From: Sulfobacillus thermosulfidooxidans DSM 9293
GTDB lineage: Bacteria; Bacillota; Sulfobacillia; Sulfobacillales; Sulfobacillaceae
Assembly (NCBI RefSeq): GCF_900176145.1
Contig: NZ_FWWY01000001.1
Coordinates: 2,663,444 to 2,727,443, forward strand
Length of the DNA stretch: 64,000 bases
Direction of reading: 5' to 3'
Shown here: positions 23,643-30,006 of the stretch, one piece after another
Layout: each line of letters starts with the position of its first letter
Position numbering within the stretch: position 1 is the first letter of the stretch
Made by a program: the position numbers and the translations under genes
Notes under the pieces: model-generated
The model's input: only the letters and a program-made list of their open reading frames with translations
Told to the model about the DNA's origin: nothing
Database searches by the model: none

Positions 23643-26099
23643 TTATGTCGTCGGTTGTGCGGGATTATAGACCTGGTTGGGATTTAAACTTTCTGAATAG
23701 ATCCCATATTGGTTGGCACGGAAATATACCTCTTCCCCGTCAATTTGCGCGTGTTGAAGGGCATTTGTGTGGTCGTTGATATCGGCTTTAGGAATCACAG
23801 GTAATGGCGTTGTGGAGGTGATGGGTGCTGGACTTTTGCCGAATTTCTGGGGGAATTGTGCGACAATACCCGTTGCTAAATAGTGGGCGGCATCAAACAT
23901 GAGTCCGTAGTCTTGAACCAGTAGGGCATCAGAGGCGGAGTCGTTACCTTGATTGAAGTCCAGCCACGATTGACTGATTTGGTTGATGTGTGTTTGCAAG
24001 ACGGAGGAGAGCACCTTCTTGCTCAAATTCGGGTTAGCTCCTGCCATAAAAGCCGCAAATGCGCTTTTGTAATGGGTAAGGGTTGCTTGAGCTTGTTGTG
24101 CGGCCCCAGAATTGTTGGCGAGAACAGCATTTTCGTACGTGAAAAAGTACATGTGTTTGTTCCAAAGACTTTCAAATTTCTGACCAGCTTGGGCTCCATA
24201 GATACTCGAAATGGCCGCCGTTAAGGCTTGAGTGTTTTGATTCATGATGGTGGTTAACGCTTGATATTGTCCCATTTGATGGGCACTAAGAGCTTGCATG
24301 CGCAACTCTAAGATAAAGGCATGCTCGCCAAGAAGTTGATCCAAGCCCGCTTGAAGGTTGGCTGCGGGTGTGTTCGGAGAAGTGGGAAACTGCGAGGGGA
24401 ACTGGTTACTGATCCCGGTCGCAAGATAATCCCCTGCGGTAAACATGAGATTATATGCTGCCACGAGTTCTTGATCCGCTGCCACATCATTACCCTGGTC
24501 AAAATCATTAAATGCCGCGGTAATTTGGTTAATGTGTTCTTGGAGAACGCTGGACAGCGTGGCTTCACTCAACTGGGGATTGGCGGTGGCCATAAACTTG
24601 GCGAACTCGTTCTTGTAAAACGTTAATTGGGCTTGGGCTTTTTGTGCGTTAACAAAATCTTGGGCATAAGTGAAGAAATACATGTGCTTATTCCATAACG
24701 TTTCAAACTCTTGGCCGCCAGCATTCCCATAAATGCTGGTAATGGCGTTTGTTAAGGCTTGAGTATTTTGCGTCATGACGTCACTTAAAGCGTTATAAAG
24801 GGCGGTATTTCCTGCGCCAAGGGCCTGCATGCGTAATTCTAAGATCATCGCGTGTTCCCCAAGAAGTTGGTCTAAAGCCACACGGAGATTACCCGCTGGA
24901 GTTCCTACGGTTGAATTATCAAATTTTTGTGGGAATTGAGCCGCAATACCCTGGGATAAGTAGGCGCCGGCAGTGTACATCAAATTGTATGCCTGGACCA
25001 TTTCGTTTTCGGATGATAAGTAATTCCCGGATACGTAATCATTAAAGGCCGTGGTAATTTGATTGATGTGTTCTTGGAGAACGGAGGACAAGGTTGATTC
25101 ACTAAAATTCGGATTGGCTGTGGCTAAAAATTGAGCAAATTGGTTTTTGTAAAAGGTCAATTGATTTTGGGCAGCTTCTTCGGCACTAACGTTGTGAGCT
25201 TTAACAGCATTGACATAGTCGAAGAAATACACGTGCTTGTTCCATAGGGTCGAGAATTCTTGCCCAGCTTGGGTGCCATAAACTGAGGCAATGGCTTGCG
25301 TTAATTGTGCGGTGTTGTTGTCCATGACTTTCATCAATGCGTTAAAGAGGGCGGTGTTGCCCGCATAATCGGCTTGCATGGCCTGCTCTAAAACAATCGC
25401 GTGTTCTCCGAGCAACTGGTCAAGAGCGACTTGCAAGTTTACTGCGGGAGTGAGTGTGCTGGTGTCTTTGAATTGAGCGGGAAATTGTTGATCGATACCG
25501 GCGGCCAGATATCCTCCTGCGGTGTACATGAGATTGTAATCAGTCACTAATTGAGCCCATGACTGATTGGGATGGCCTGTCTGTGCATCATTAAAGGCCG
25601 TGGTGATTTGATTAATGTGATCTTGGAGTACGGTAGACAAGGTGCTTTCACGAAGATTCGGATTCGCGGTGGCCATAAACTGGGCAAATTCATTTTTGTA
25701 GTGAGTTAAAAGCGCTTGAGACTGTTGCTCTCCAACATAAGCCTTGGCATAGCTAAAGAAATATTTGTGCTGATTCCATAGCGATTCGAATTCCTGACCG
25801 CCTTTTTGCCCATAAATCGAACTGACGGCATTCGTTAACGCCGTGGTGTCCTGATTCATGGTGGTGGTCAAAGCTTGATATTGGGCTTTGTTCCCTTGGG
25901 CTAAAGCTTGCATCCGCAATTCTAAAGTCATCGCATGCTCGCCAAGCAGTTGATCGAGTCCCGCACGCAGATTTGCCGCAGGTGTCGAGGTCGGGGAAGA
26001 CGTGGATGGAGCGGATTGGGCAAAAGTGAGGGTGAGCGGTAATCCGGCTAAGACGGAGCCAGCTAATGTGGCCGCTAAAAGTTTCACGGAACGTTTCAT
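23643..26099 (-). CDS. secreted protein of four long helical repeats, unknown function
   Basis: An 818-residue exported protein. Residues 1-28 are a signal peptide (KR, hydrophobic core, TFAQS cleavage region). Four repeats of about 170-176 residues follow at about 41-210, 218-393, 401-571 and 578-753, then a Pro-rich linker and a 50-residue tail. Each repeat has conserved blocks: LDQLLGEHA, an ELRMQAL segment, SIYG with GQEFE, LWNKHMYFF, ANP with LSSVLQEHINQI, and YNLMYTAG ending in QFP. Conserved His and Glu (GEHA, NKH, QEHINQ) could bind a metal in a four-helix bundle. Similar domains occur in secreted Bacilli proteins annotated copper amine oxidase-like, from memory. Function unknown; the high similarity between repeats implies recent duplication. 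Confidence 0.85.
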   Translation of the reverse strand: MKRSVKLLAATLAGSVLAGLPLTLTFAQSAPSTSSPTSTPAANLRAGLDQLLGEHAMTLELRMQALAQGNKAQYQALTTTMNQDTTALTNAVSSIYGQKGGQEFESLWNQHKYFFSYAKAYVGEQQSQALLTHYKNEFAQFMATANPNLRESTLSTVLQDHINQITTAFNDAQTGHPNQSWAQLVTDYNLMYTAGGYLAAGIDQQFPAQFKDTSTLTPAVNLQVALDQLLGEHAIVLEQAMQADYAGNTALFNALMKVMDNNTAQLTQAIASVYGTQAGQEFSTLWNKHVYFFDYVNAVKAHNVSAEEAAQNQLTFYKNQFAQFLATANPNFSESTLSSVLQEHINQITTAFNDYVSGNYLSSENEMVQAYNLMYTAGAYLSQGIAAQFPQKFDNSTVGTPAGNLRVALDQLLGEHAMILELRMQALGAGNTALYNALSDVMTQNTQALTNAITSIYGNAGGQEFETLWNKHMYFFTYAQDFVNAQKAQAQLTFYKNEFAKFMATANPQLSEATLSSVLQEHINQITAAFNDFDQGNDVAADQELVAAYNLMFTAGDYLATGISNQFPSQFPTSPNTPAANLQAGLDQLLGEHAFILELRMQALSAHQMGQYQALTTIMNQNTQALTAAISSIYGAQAGQKFESLWNKHMYFFTYENAVLANNSGAAQQAQATLTHYKSAFAAFMAGANPNLSKKVLSSVLQTHINQISQSWLDFNQGNDSASDALLVQDYGLMFDAAHYLATGIVAQFPQKFGKSPAPITSTTPLPVIPKADINDHTNALQHAQIDGEEVYFRANQYGIYSESLNPNQVYNPAQPTT

Positions 26100-26149
26100 A
26101 CATGCATCATCCTCGTATAAAGAAATTGATTCTGCTACCCTGAGGCTTT

Positions 26150-26485
26150 ATCTTGAGGCCTGCCTCGCGGCCAGCAGCAATCGGCATTCGGGATGATCAG
26201 GCTTGCCAGATCGGGTTTCGTCGGCGATGCTCGAAGAAGATCGGGACGATTCAAGACTGCATTCCTCCTGCCGGATTGACGGCTTCGAAAGTCTGTGAGT
26301 CGGCGACGCCGCTTCGTCACAGTTAACGCGCGGGATGCCGCTCCCCCCGTGGAGACCCGTGGCACCGGTCTATCGCACACCGCGGGTGGCGATGACGGCT
26401 TATAAGCGAGGTTGCGGCGAAGGCGTCGGCGCGTCGGCGAAATCCCGTTCCCGATGCATTCCTCCGCGAAGGGAGGTGAAATCCC
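26150..26485 (+). ncRNA. IS110 left non-coding end, candidate bridge (guide) RNA region
   Basis: About 330 bases of GC-rich, hairpin-prone sequence without a coding frame lie directly upstream of the IS110-family recombinase gene. In the IS110 group the non-coding stretch upstream of the recombinase encodes a structured bridge RNA that pairs with donor and target DNA. Position and composition fit; I cannot resolve the loops or the exact ends by eye. AAGGGAGGTGAAA at 26469 onward is the recombinase binding site. Confidence 0.35.
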
Positions 26486-27720
26486 ATGGATAGCGTGTTG
26501 TACGTCGGTATTGACACCAGTCTCGGGGCTCACGTCGTCTGCGCGATGGCGGCGGATGGCCAGGTCGTCGCGCGGACGACCGTCCCCAACGATCAGGCGG
26601 GGGCCGAGCAATTCGTCGCTTGGCTGCACCCCCACGCCGCGCCGTACGCGCGGCTGGCCATTGGCGTCGAGGCCACGTCCGTGTACCATGTGCCGCTGAT
26701 GGAATGGCTGACGCAAACCCCCGACTTGCAGCGGTGGCAACCCACCTGGTACGTCCTCAATCCGAAAGTCGTCCAGAAATTCCGAGAGACCTATGTGGAT
26801 CGGGGCAAAACCGACCGAGCGGATGCCGCCCTGATTGCGGATGTCATGCGGTTTGGGCGCGTCACGCCCTGGACCCCGCCGGATCCGCGCTATGCGGCGT
26901 TGCAGGTCTTGACCCGCCATCGTCGGCAGCTGAGCCACCTCATCACCCAAGAAAAAATCGCGCGTTGGTGCAATTGTTTTGTGTCTGGGGGCAGTATGCC
27001 CATACGGAGGAGCCGTTTTTCTCGAACGTCTTTGGGGTAGCGTCGCAAACCGTGTTGGAACGCTACACGCCCGATACGCTGGCAGCCATCCCGCTGGCGG
27101 ATCTGGTGGCGGAAATCGCGGCGGCCGGTCGCCAACGGCTGAAAGCGCCCGATGACATTGCGCAGACCTTGCACCGCTTGGCGCGGCGCGCCTTTCGGTT
27201 GCATCCGGACGAGCAGGACGCGCGGCACCAAAGCTTGGTCCTGCATTTGGACACCATCCGGGCCTTGGAACATCAACAACAGGCGCTGGACAAAGTGATT
27301 GCCCGTGACATGCAGGCGTTTCGCCAAACCCTGACCACGATTCCGGGGATTGGTCCGGTCTATGGCGCGGGCCTCTTGGCCGAAATCGGTCCCATCGAAC
27401 GATTTCCGTCGGAAAATGCCTTGGCCAAATATGCGGGGCTGACCTGGCGCCCGCATCAATCGGGGAATTTTGATGCCGACATCCGTCCGCTGACGCGGAC
27501 GGGGAACGTCTATTTGCGGTACTACTTCATCGAAGCGGCGGAGAGGGTCCGGGTGCGGGACCCGCAGTTCAAAGCCTTTTACGAGAAGAAGTACCACGAA
27601 GCCACGCACCACGCACATAAGCGGGCGTTGGTCTTGACGGCACGCAAGTTGGTCGGCGTGGTCTACGGGATGCTGACCCGGGGCCAAATCTACGACGAAA
27701 GGAAGTTGATGCCGCACTAA
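26486..27720 (+). pseudogene. IS110-family recombinase with one frameshift
   Basis: The N-terminal RuvC-like DEDD part reads YVGIDTS, GVEATSVYH and DRGKTDRADAALIADV in one frame up to residue 157. The C-terminal Transposase_20 part (TIPGIGPVYGAGLLAEIG, LAKYAGLTWRPHQSG, TGNVYLRYYFIEAAE) continues in the -1 frame to 27720. The break is at a run of six A (26952-26957); one more A would restore a continuous protein of about 411 residues. Loss of one A is the simple reading. Slippage on the A run could still make some full-length protein. Without the repair the first product stops at 27040. Confidence 0.85.
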
Positions 27721-27740
27721 AGGGATTGACAACTTATTTG

Positions 27741-28065
27741 CCATTATCTACCACCTCCTTTTAGGCAGGTTTATGTTGCCCTGGCCCTGTTCGTCGTTGT
27801 CCTAAGCTGATCGGTTCTTGACATTTAACCGCGGGACTTTGTCATCGGGCGGTTCCACCCGGTATTTGACGCAATTTCTGCTGTCATGTCCTGATACGCA
27901 AGGAGCGATTAAACAGATCTGTGGGGACCTTTGAGGTGGACTAAAACGAAAAACAGATCCGTTAATCCCATATCTCCGTATTTCTCCATGAAAGCGCTTT
28001 ACTGGGCTTCACTCATCTGCATCCATGAGGTGTTAACTGACCAACAAAACAGGGGGAATGTGACG
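27741..28065. other. intergenic region after the IS110 element
   Basis: No convincing gene. It holds a direct repeat AACAGATC(T/C)GT at about 27913 and 27952 flanking GTGGGGACCTTTGAGGTGGAC, which looks like the kind of sequence left by old insertion-sequence ends, but I cannot name a family. Confidence 0.4.
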
Positions 28066-28275
28066 ATGTTTCGAACTAACGAGAGTCGTAGTGACCGCAT
28101 TATACGTATCATCTTCGGGTTGATTGCTTTGGGCTTGGCGTTTAATCATGTCGGAGGAAATGTAGGGACATGGGTTTTTGGGATTGTGGCGGCATTAGCC
28201 ATAATAACTGGGCTTACTGGAGTATGTGCGCTTTATAAATTGATTGGTGTGAGCACCTGTCCGATTAGAAAGTAA
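28066..28275 (+). CDS. DUF2892 small inner-membrane protein
   Basis: A 69-residue protein with two membrane spans and the typical start (NESRSDRIIRIIFGLIAL) and C-terminal CALYKLIGVSTCPIRK of DUF2892 (YgaP-like membrane part). The two cysteines of the tail are conserved in the family, which is often linked to rhodaneses and sulfur metabolism. ATG 28066 is chosen for its GGGGG site nine bases upstream; the frame is open further up without a good start. Confidence 0.82.
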   Translation: MFRTNESRSDRIIRIIFGLIALGLAFNHVGGNVGTWVFGIVAALAIITGLTGVCALYKLIGVSTCPIRK

Positions 28276-28531: not shown

Positions 28532-29251
28532 CTAGATAGATGATGCCGGCAATGTGGCGGCCGCCAAGATCGGGGTTGTGGGCTTTTCTGTGCCTCCTTG
28601 GGGTTCTATGGTAATAGCGAAGGCACTGGCACCGGGTTTTTTAGGCGGCAAAAAATGTGGACCGGGTCCAAAGGTTCCCGCCGGCACCGGGGTGCCTTTA
28701 ACGAGCCACCACCCCTCGTAAGTTTCCCCTGGTTTTAAGGGAGGCAATGCCTTGACCCAAATGAGTGCTTTGGGACCCTGCACATAGAGGAGAACCCTGC
28801 TGGCTTTTGCCGAGACATTAGCCAAGTGAATTTGCTCGGATGACGACATCATTTGAACTAGGGCATCTAGTTGTTGAGCGCGCTCTTTGGTGTGAAAATA
28901 CGATTGCCAGCCAAGAGCGGCCACAATCACGGCCGCTGCGGTGGACAGGGCCCACGGCACCATAATCCGGCGCGTCTTGAGATGGGAAGACACGGGGCGT
29001 TTTGTTCCTAAATCGTCTTGTATCCGCTCCAAAAATTGTTCCCGCATGGGTTCATGAGCGCTGAAATCCGGTTCAATCGCATTCCATGCCTGCTCGCTGT
29101 CGAAAGTGGATAACTGATGCCAATAGATTTGACAAGTCTCGCATTCTTGGAGATGACGAGTGACGCGGTCTTGAGTGTGAGCATCGGCGAGACCGGTAAA
29201 GGTTTTTTCGATCGCTTCCTGCCAGCTTTCATCGTTATGGTTCAGCATCAC
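28532..29251 (-). CDS. anti-sigma factor, RskA type with zinc-binding ZAS motif
   Basis: A 239-residue membrane protein. The cytoplasmic N-terminus carries HLQECETC (HxxxCxxC, anti-sigma zinc motif); a single span lies near residues 97-113; the outside part ends with the RskA-type fold (GETYEGWWLVKG, VPAGTFGPG, ITIEPQGGTEKPTTPI). It should hold the ECF sigma factor encoded just upstream and release it on an envelope signal, usually through proteolysis. The genes overlap by 17 bases. Confidence 0.88.
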   Translation of the reverse strand: MMLNHNDESWQEAIEKTFTGLADAHTQDRVTRHLQECETCQIYWHQLSTFDSEQAWNAIEPDFSAHEPMREQFLERIQDDLGTKRPVSSHLKTRRIMVPWALSTAAAVIVAALGWQSYFHTKERAQQLDALVQMMSSSEQIHLANVSAKASRVLLYVQGPKALIWVKALPPLKPGETYEGWWLVKGTPVPAGTFGPGPHFLPPKKPGASAFAITIEPQGGTEKPTTPILAAATLPASSI

Positions 29252-29840
29252 TCACCTCCTCTCGTAGAATGTCTCGAAGCTTTTCGAGACCCAGTCGCAA
29301 CCGTGTTTTCACGGTACCTAATGGCAATCCCCTGGCTCGTGCGACTTGTGGTGCGGAAAAACCGATGAGGTAAACATCGGTCAATACGACGCGCTGGGCC
29401 TCTGGCAATAAGCTCATGGCGGATTGGAGAGCACGTTGGCCCATTTTTTGAATCACATCCTCAACGACTTCGTTATCCATGTCAGCCAATTCATCGCTGA
29501 GATCGTCGATGGAGTCTGCTGCGGGGATATTTTTAATTTTACGCAGTTGGTCCGTACACCGACTGCGGGCAATCACAAGCAGCCAGGTGGAACAAGATGC
29601 ACGATGCGCATCATATTTATCCGCATTTTGCCAGACGGTCCAAAATATATCTTGGACCGTCTCATCAGCGATTTCCCGGTTTTGGATCATGCGGTGACAC
29701 AATCCTTTAACCTTGCCAAAGTACCGGTCATAAAAGGCCATCATTGCCTGTTGATCTTTTTGGGCAATCCTTTGCAATAATTGTTCGTCGGATATCTCAG
29801 GCAATCCCCATGTTCCTCCTATGGGATGATACGTGATCAT
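29235..29840 (-). CDS. ECF RNA polymerase sigma factor
   Basis: A 201-residue sigma-70 family ECF factor with region 2 (AMMAFYDRYFGKVKGLCHRM, DETVQDIFWTVWQNADKYD) and region 4 (LPEAQRVVLTDVYLIGFSAPQVARARGLPLGTVKTRL). It resembles SigK-type ECF factors that pair with RskA anti-sigmas, as here. Transcribed toward the anti-sigma gene. The promoter should lie in the gap 29841-30006 and may be self-regulated. Confidence 0.92.
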   Translation of the reverse strand: MITYHPIGGTWGLPEISDEQLLQRIAQKDQQAMMAFYDRYFGKVKGLCHRMIQNREIADETVQDIFWTVWQNADKYDAHRASCSTWLLVIARSRCTDQLRKIKNIPAADSIDDLSDELADMDNEVVEDVIQKMGQRALQSAMSLLPEAQRVVLTDVYLIGFSAPQVARARGLPLGTVKTRLRLGLEKLRDILREEVSDAEP

Positions 29841-30006
29841 CCCTGAAATCGATCCATAACCGACAATGATAACGGGCCATTTGGGAATCTATGTGCCTTT
29901 CATCATACAACTTTTTAGGAAGGCTTGTGTCATACGGACCCGCTCAAAGCCTTTAGGATGTCATGGTACAATAGGAAAGACATTCTTGGTAAATGGGTGA
30001 AGTGGC

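Follow-up and report, generated by a model that had tools for sequence, protein, structure and literature searches.

Mpt70 and Mpt83, two secreted proteins of mycobacteria, are built from FAS1 domains. Both are targets of the ECF sigma factor SigK, which is paired with an anti-sigma factor of the RskA type (PMC7509140), and the redox sensitivity of the SigK-RskA pair is the topic of a further paper cited in that work. A comparable arrangement has been found in a stretch of 64,000 nucleotides from Sulfobacillus thermosulfidooxidans DSM 9293 (hereafter the window, meaning the whole stretch that was analysed), where a secreted protein would likewise be controlled by an ECF sigma factor that is paired with an anti-sigma factor of the RskA type. 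However, whereas the mycobacterial output consists of FAS1 domains, here it is an unrelated, predicted six-helix domain with conserved histidines, and the promoter has the form GATC-N17-CGTTA/CGTAT. As in the SigK/RskA layout, the sigma gene is followed by a gene for an anti-sigma factor with an RskA_C domain and, as far as the motif itself can indicate, the sigma gene and its targets share one promoter. The elements upstream of the gene of interest are the following:

26113..27836, strand not assigned: IS110-family element, inserted 13 bases before the ATG of the repeat gene, within its 5' leader/Shine-Dalgarno region (boundaries good to a few bases)
27891..27925, minus strand: ECF-type promoter motif of the repeat gene, CAGATC-N17-CGTATC, with an equivalent in genome G003 (L084, L218)
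27950..27984, plus strand: divergent copy of the promoter motif before the YgaP-like gene, also present in G003 (L216)
28066..28275, plus strand: gene for a small YgaP-like_TM membrane protein (PF11127), its start codon taken from the G003 ortholog
28532..29251, minus strand: anti-sigma factor gene, RskA_C domain
29235..29840, minus strand: ECF sigma factor gene, with a SigK-like best NCBIfam match below the cut-off and a true start perhaps slightly downstream
29826..29860, minus strand: promoter motif at the start of the sigma gene, which would mean autoregulation

Comparison of upstream regions gave a motif of two boxes, which reads TGATCC-N16-CGTTA in Bacillaceae and Planococcaceae and takes the form GAGATC-N17-CGTAT in Sulfobacillus. 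Across 40 stretches (39 related loci and the window), sigma homologs occur in 19, anti-sigma homologs in 19 and sortase homologs in 21. In its general form, GATC-N16/17-CGTTA/CGTA, the motif stands upstream of 25 out of 39 domain genes and of 11 out of 20 sigma genes; the corresponding figures are 15 of 487 for other genes and 0.9% for shuffled sequences (Fisher p ~1e-22 for the domain genes and 8e-11 for the sigma genes; p-values for promoters and neighbours are overstated because the loci come from related genomes, L042 and L103 being the same locus). A stricter motif was searched in ten Bacilli genomes and matched ten times, in six of the genomes. Eight of the matches stand immediately ahead of domain genes, some of which are second copies located at another place in the genome. 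Paenibacillus-like and single-domain loci lack the motif. The first promoter guess, GAAC-N15-18-CGTC, was found before only one of 39 domain genes and was dropped.

These comparisons suggest that the repeat gene is a main target of a dedicated ECF/RskA envelope-stress switch in many bacteria, with the YgaP-like_TM gene as a probable second target of the shared promoter. The targets of this ECF branch were not found described in earlier work, and the tight promoter link would make its purpose directly testable in easily handled laboratory bacteria, for instance Fictibacillus or Sporosarcina. In the window genome (G000) and in G003, the Sulfobacillus form stands before the YgaP-like gene and also before an unclassified membrane protein gene, whose product of 295-312 residues has no Pfam family and is a candidate member of the regulon (L203 1501-1527, L222 1501-1527). 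The regulon was surveyed by pattern search, and most matches to the pattern AGATC-N17-CGTAT in these two genomes are intragenic and were left out of the counts. In Fictibacillus, the motif is also seen where a gene for a secreted protein of low complexity begins (L236 417-1541).

The IS110 element carries DEDD_Tnp_IS110 and Transposase_20 domains. Ten more matches to it, 99-100% identical, occur in the genome, and nine of these are close to full length. Two overlapping frames, 26486-27040 and 26620-27720, encode its transposase, suggesting a frameshift. The orthologous site in G003 (L084) is uninterrupted by an IS element. In the window strain, the reading frame of the repeat gene is intact and the ECF promoter lies on the far side of the element. 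Since the insertion separates gene and promoter, expression of the repeat gene may be lost or changed in this strain, probably by outright loss or by rewiring.

The protein encoded by the repeat gene is divided as follows:

23643..26099, minus strand: gene for the secreted four-repeat protein of 818 residues, an open reading frame with a same-length ortholog in G003 (dN/dS ~0.06)
26019..26099, minus strand: signal peptide MKRSVKLLAATLAGSVLAGLPLTLTFA, residues 1-27, cleavage site TFA-QS, read by eye
25470..25985, minus strand: repeat 1, residues 39-210, with His55, His111 and His161
24921..25451, minus strand: repeat 2, residues 217-393, with His233, His289 and His344
24387..24902, minus strand: repeat 3, residues 400-571, with His416, His472 and His522 (modelled, pLDDT 95)
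23841..24371, minus strand: repeat 4, residues 577-753, with His593, His649 and His704
23643..23840, minus strand: C-terminal tail, residues 754-818, hydrophilic, where related four-copy proteins carry an SPVTG sorting signal

The first-pass annotation, made from the letters of the DNA, had described a signal peptide followed by four repeats of about 170 residues. Both are present: the signal peptide, judged by eye, is a typical one, and the units measure 172-177 residues with pairwise identities of 55-64%. It had also listed three shared blocks, of which LDQLLGEHA is indeed identical in all four repeats, whereas the second and third vary slightly and LWNKHMYFF is exact in repeats 3 and 4 only. 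Against the nearest ortholog, that of G003 (818 residues), dN is 0.071 and dS 1.21, which indicates purifying selection. Each repeat matches the family profile, which itself contains these repeats, with an E-value of ~1e-76 or better. Chance similarity among the repeats is ruled out by the profile E-values, by the presence of the same unit in distant genomes and by dN/dS.

No Pfam-A or NCBIfam family reaches its curated cut-off with the full window protein, and among 51 members of the domain family no library model had more than a handful of matches; no paper on the domain was found in the literature. Nevertheless, the domain was detected in 155 of 398 sampled genomes of Bacilli (class assigned from the relatives of genome G171), and in 29 of 301 genomes of the phylum to which a Chloroflexi MAG belongs (Chloroflexota). 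Thus, about two fifths of the sampled Bacilli genomes carry a domain that is undescribed in the family libraries used and whose public names mislead. In genome searches, proteins with four copies came from several genomes of the family of the window organism, Sulfobacillus thermotolerans among them, and those with two copies from related Bacillota, Alicyclobacillus ferrooxydans, Fictibacillus, Sporosarcina, Metabacillus and Domibacillus. In the tree, the repeats of four-copy proteins form one fully supported group, separate from those of two-copy proteins, and the expansion therefore predates these species. No relative was found among viral contigs, and a phage origin was rejected on this basis.

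Single-domain relatives are located on plasmids of Priestia, Nocardioides, Methylocystis and Bradyrhizobium, so that the domain extends to actinobacterial and alphaproteobacterial plasmids. Their homology to the core set is shown by hhalign (E 5.5e-30, computed after removal of the single-domain rows and of L063 from that set), and they conserve the same three His and the Asn discussed below. Unlike the window protein, the single-domain proteins of Priestia, Paenibacillus, Nocardioides and Methylocystis have one copy and no sortase tail, some also lack a signal peptide, and they are named 'glycosyltransferase' or hypothetical. The former name, given for example to members on Priestia and Cytobacillus plasmids (L169 5902-6546), is apparently wrong, as these have no Pfam match.

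The expectation that relatives would be secreted Bacilli proteins with uninformative names was borne out by the public records, in which they appear as 'copper amine oxidase', 'glycosyltransferase' or hypothetical proteins. The 'copper amine oxidase' proteins of Planococcus and its relatives carry the domain in two copies, with a class F sortase (so named in Planococcus) adjacent in two of three cases. The name probably derives from the accessory Cu_amine_oxidN1 module of some relatives, and none of the relatives tested has the catalytic domain of amine oxidases. The window protein has neither module nor catalytic domain.

As regards attachment to the cell surface, the C termini of relatives present SPVTG or MPKTG sorting signals, Cu_amine_oxidN1 modules or SLH domains, and a sortase gene is adjacent in 21 related loci. 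The C termini of the window protein and its G003 ortholog lack the combination of sorting motif, hydrophobic stretch and basic tail, and there is no dedicated sortase gene near the window gene or beside the ortholog. Elsewhere in G000, only a sortase homolog of 39% with an internal stop, plus fragments, was found. A gene without Pfam family recurs beside the sortase in seven loci (L085 6066-6878, L087 7371-8285).

The proposal of helical bundles on a string agrees with the predicted models, with six helices per bundle. AlphaFold2 gave a pLDDT of 95 and a pTM of 0.88 for repeat 3 with 51 relatives, and of 98 and 0.92 for a distant single-domain relative. The latter is modelled as a six-helix up-down bundle (helices 2-30, 36-58, 60-85, 89-113, 119-141 and 145-173) with a helix break at the nearly invariant Gly59, while the secondary-structure assignment of the repeat 3 model merges helices 2 and 3. 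With either model, Foldseek returned no solved structure at E < 0.001. The top VIA match was a designed antiparallel six-helix barrel, sc-apCC-6 (PDB 8qad), with Z 10.1 over 143 aligned residues and rmsd 4.6, a score to be read with the warning of the tool that, for helical bundles, a Z under ~13 may mean a common arrangement alone. Like the repeat domain as predicted, sc-apCC-6 consists of six antiparallel helices, but it is designed and non-homologous, and only the arrangement is similar. Further look-alikes were designed bundles, sensor domains and, lower down, microbial rhodopsins; all were rejected as relatives and taken as cases of shared arrangement. By sequence, the PDB yielded a single designed bundle (E 1.2e-5), judged to be a composition match.

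The recurrence of His and Glu at the same positions, also pointed out from the DNA, holds for the histidines. In the numbering of repeat 3, His is present at positions 17, 73 and 123 of every repeat. The Glu of the QEH block fails, since this position reads D, E, E and T in repeats 1 to 4. Among 185 domains, the triple is HHH in 162, and weighted conservation is 90% for His17, 87% for Asn46, 70% for His73 and 71% for His123. The QEH position before His123 is Glu in 15% of the same relatives (weighted), and that of GEHA is Glu in 63%, Asp in 13% and Gln in 12%. A fourth, partly conserved His, at position 152 and off the conserved face, is present in 41% of the family, but every repeat of the window protein has Leu there, which counts against a binding site. 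Loss of His73 almost always goes with loss of His123; this is seen in Chloroflexota members, where both are replaced jointly, often by Gln or Arg (L063, L151-L162). This joint loss points to one site, although it is only suggestive, as the independent events are few.

In the distant model, the distance to the flanking turns is 13-15 residues for each of His18, Asn46, His73, Asn102 and His129. By helix phase, the corresponding residues of the core set deviate by no more than ~60 degrees from the middle of the conserved or hydrophobic face. Taking into account both turn-counting and helix phase, we infer that the three His (helices 1, 3 and 5) and the conserved Asn (helix 2) would share a single layer in the middle of the bundle. 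Such a layer would indirectly answer the objection that the His lie far apart, although the set may also serve in packing.

The explanation that we favour, with somewhat better than even confidence, is that the locus encodes secreted tandem six-helix His domains under ECF/RskA control, which probably hold a metal ion or a small ligand. According to this proposal, an ECF sigma factor would be held by a membrane anti-sigma factor of the RskA type, as part of a dedicated envelope-stress circuit. It would transcribe the repeat gene and its own gene from the shared promoter, as suggested by motif and neighbourhood. The secreted product, displayed at the surface and induced by stress, would consist of four tandem six-helix bundles, each with a set of three conserved His and one Asn, predicted to lie at mid-bundle. 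This set would most likely serve to bind a metal ion or small ligand on the outer side of the membrane, metal binding in particular being plausible, though hard to defend in an acidophile. Each chain would thereby expose two to four binding units on the cell, and in relatives it would usually be attached to the wall by the adjacent sortase or by SLH or Cu_amine_oxidN1 modules. In the window strain, where the anchor is absent and IS110 separates the gene from the ECF promoter, expression of these units is presumably altered.

A more specific version, to which we give slightly less than an even chance, is that each domain is a natural single-chain antiparallel six-helix barrel with three inward His on alternate helices holding the metal or ligand, arrayed in tandem under the ECF/RskA circuit. 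If it were a true barrel with a central His set, the domain would be an attractive natural counterpart to the designed ones.

The idea that an outside metal binder suits an acidic, metal-rich habitat proved a weak argument. The external pH of Sulfobacillus is about 2, at which free imidazole is protonated and binds metals poorly, and most of the relatives found belong to non-acidophiles. The acid habitat thus counts against simple external chelation by exposed His, a buried site being possible.

Buried His of an acidophile would, on the other hand, respond to acid, and this leads to the strongest of the competing explanations. The His and Asn could be buried and joined by hydrogen bonds, in a network that stabilises the bundle or serves as a pH switch, the protein being a wall spacer or surface shield with no metal. 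The polar set does lie on conserved, mostly hydrophobic helix faces, Asn is conserved as strongly as His, and tandem copies and wall anchoring suit a structural role. However, packing residues usually drift, while position 17 stays His in nine tenths of the domains. Moreover, the losses of His73 and His123 mostly coincide, as would be expected rather of a shared site, and the hosts are mostly non-acidophiles. We regard this explanation as unlikely, yet deserving of serious attention.

The neighbouring RskA-type anti-sigma gene raises another proposal, that the protein is a redox or small-molecule sensor, or a buffer, of a SigK/RskA-type response, its ligand being organic (a quinone, a thiol compound or haem) and not a free metal. 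The redox sensitivity of SigK-RskA, on record as the topic of the paper cited in PMC7509140, fits with it, as do the YgaP-like gene under the same promoter and the fact that helical sensor domains among the look-alikes, such as PcaY, bind ligands. Nevertheless, look-alikes at such VIA Z scores say nothing on function, the four repeats of the window protein contain no Cys, and no ligand-specific gene recurs in the neighbourhood, so that we consider this role improbable.

Membership in the ferritin-like or hemerythrin superfamily, as an iron- or metal-handling protein, has very little in its favour beyond an all-helical fold with conserved His and a DUF2935 gene near one single-domain relative, and is already contradicted by the sequence: DUF2935 (PF11155), likewise helical, His-containing and found in Bacilli, shows no detectable relationship (hhalign probability 0.5%), Hemerythrin (PF01814, HHE) matched weakly one of 51 members (E 0.014), neither the acidic ligands beside His nor the Glu ligands are conserved, and the bundle is predicted to have six helices. 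DinB/YfiT, a group of three-His bundles, was also considered and may yet be related: DinB profiles gave no match with the full window protein or eight relatives, no DinB family is among the 25 families listed for the 51 members, and three fold matches were weak or absent.

In genome G011, a second repeat gene, split into two overlapping frames (L087 8294-10550), adjoins its own sigma, anti-sigma and sortase genes.
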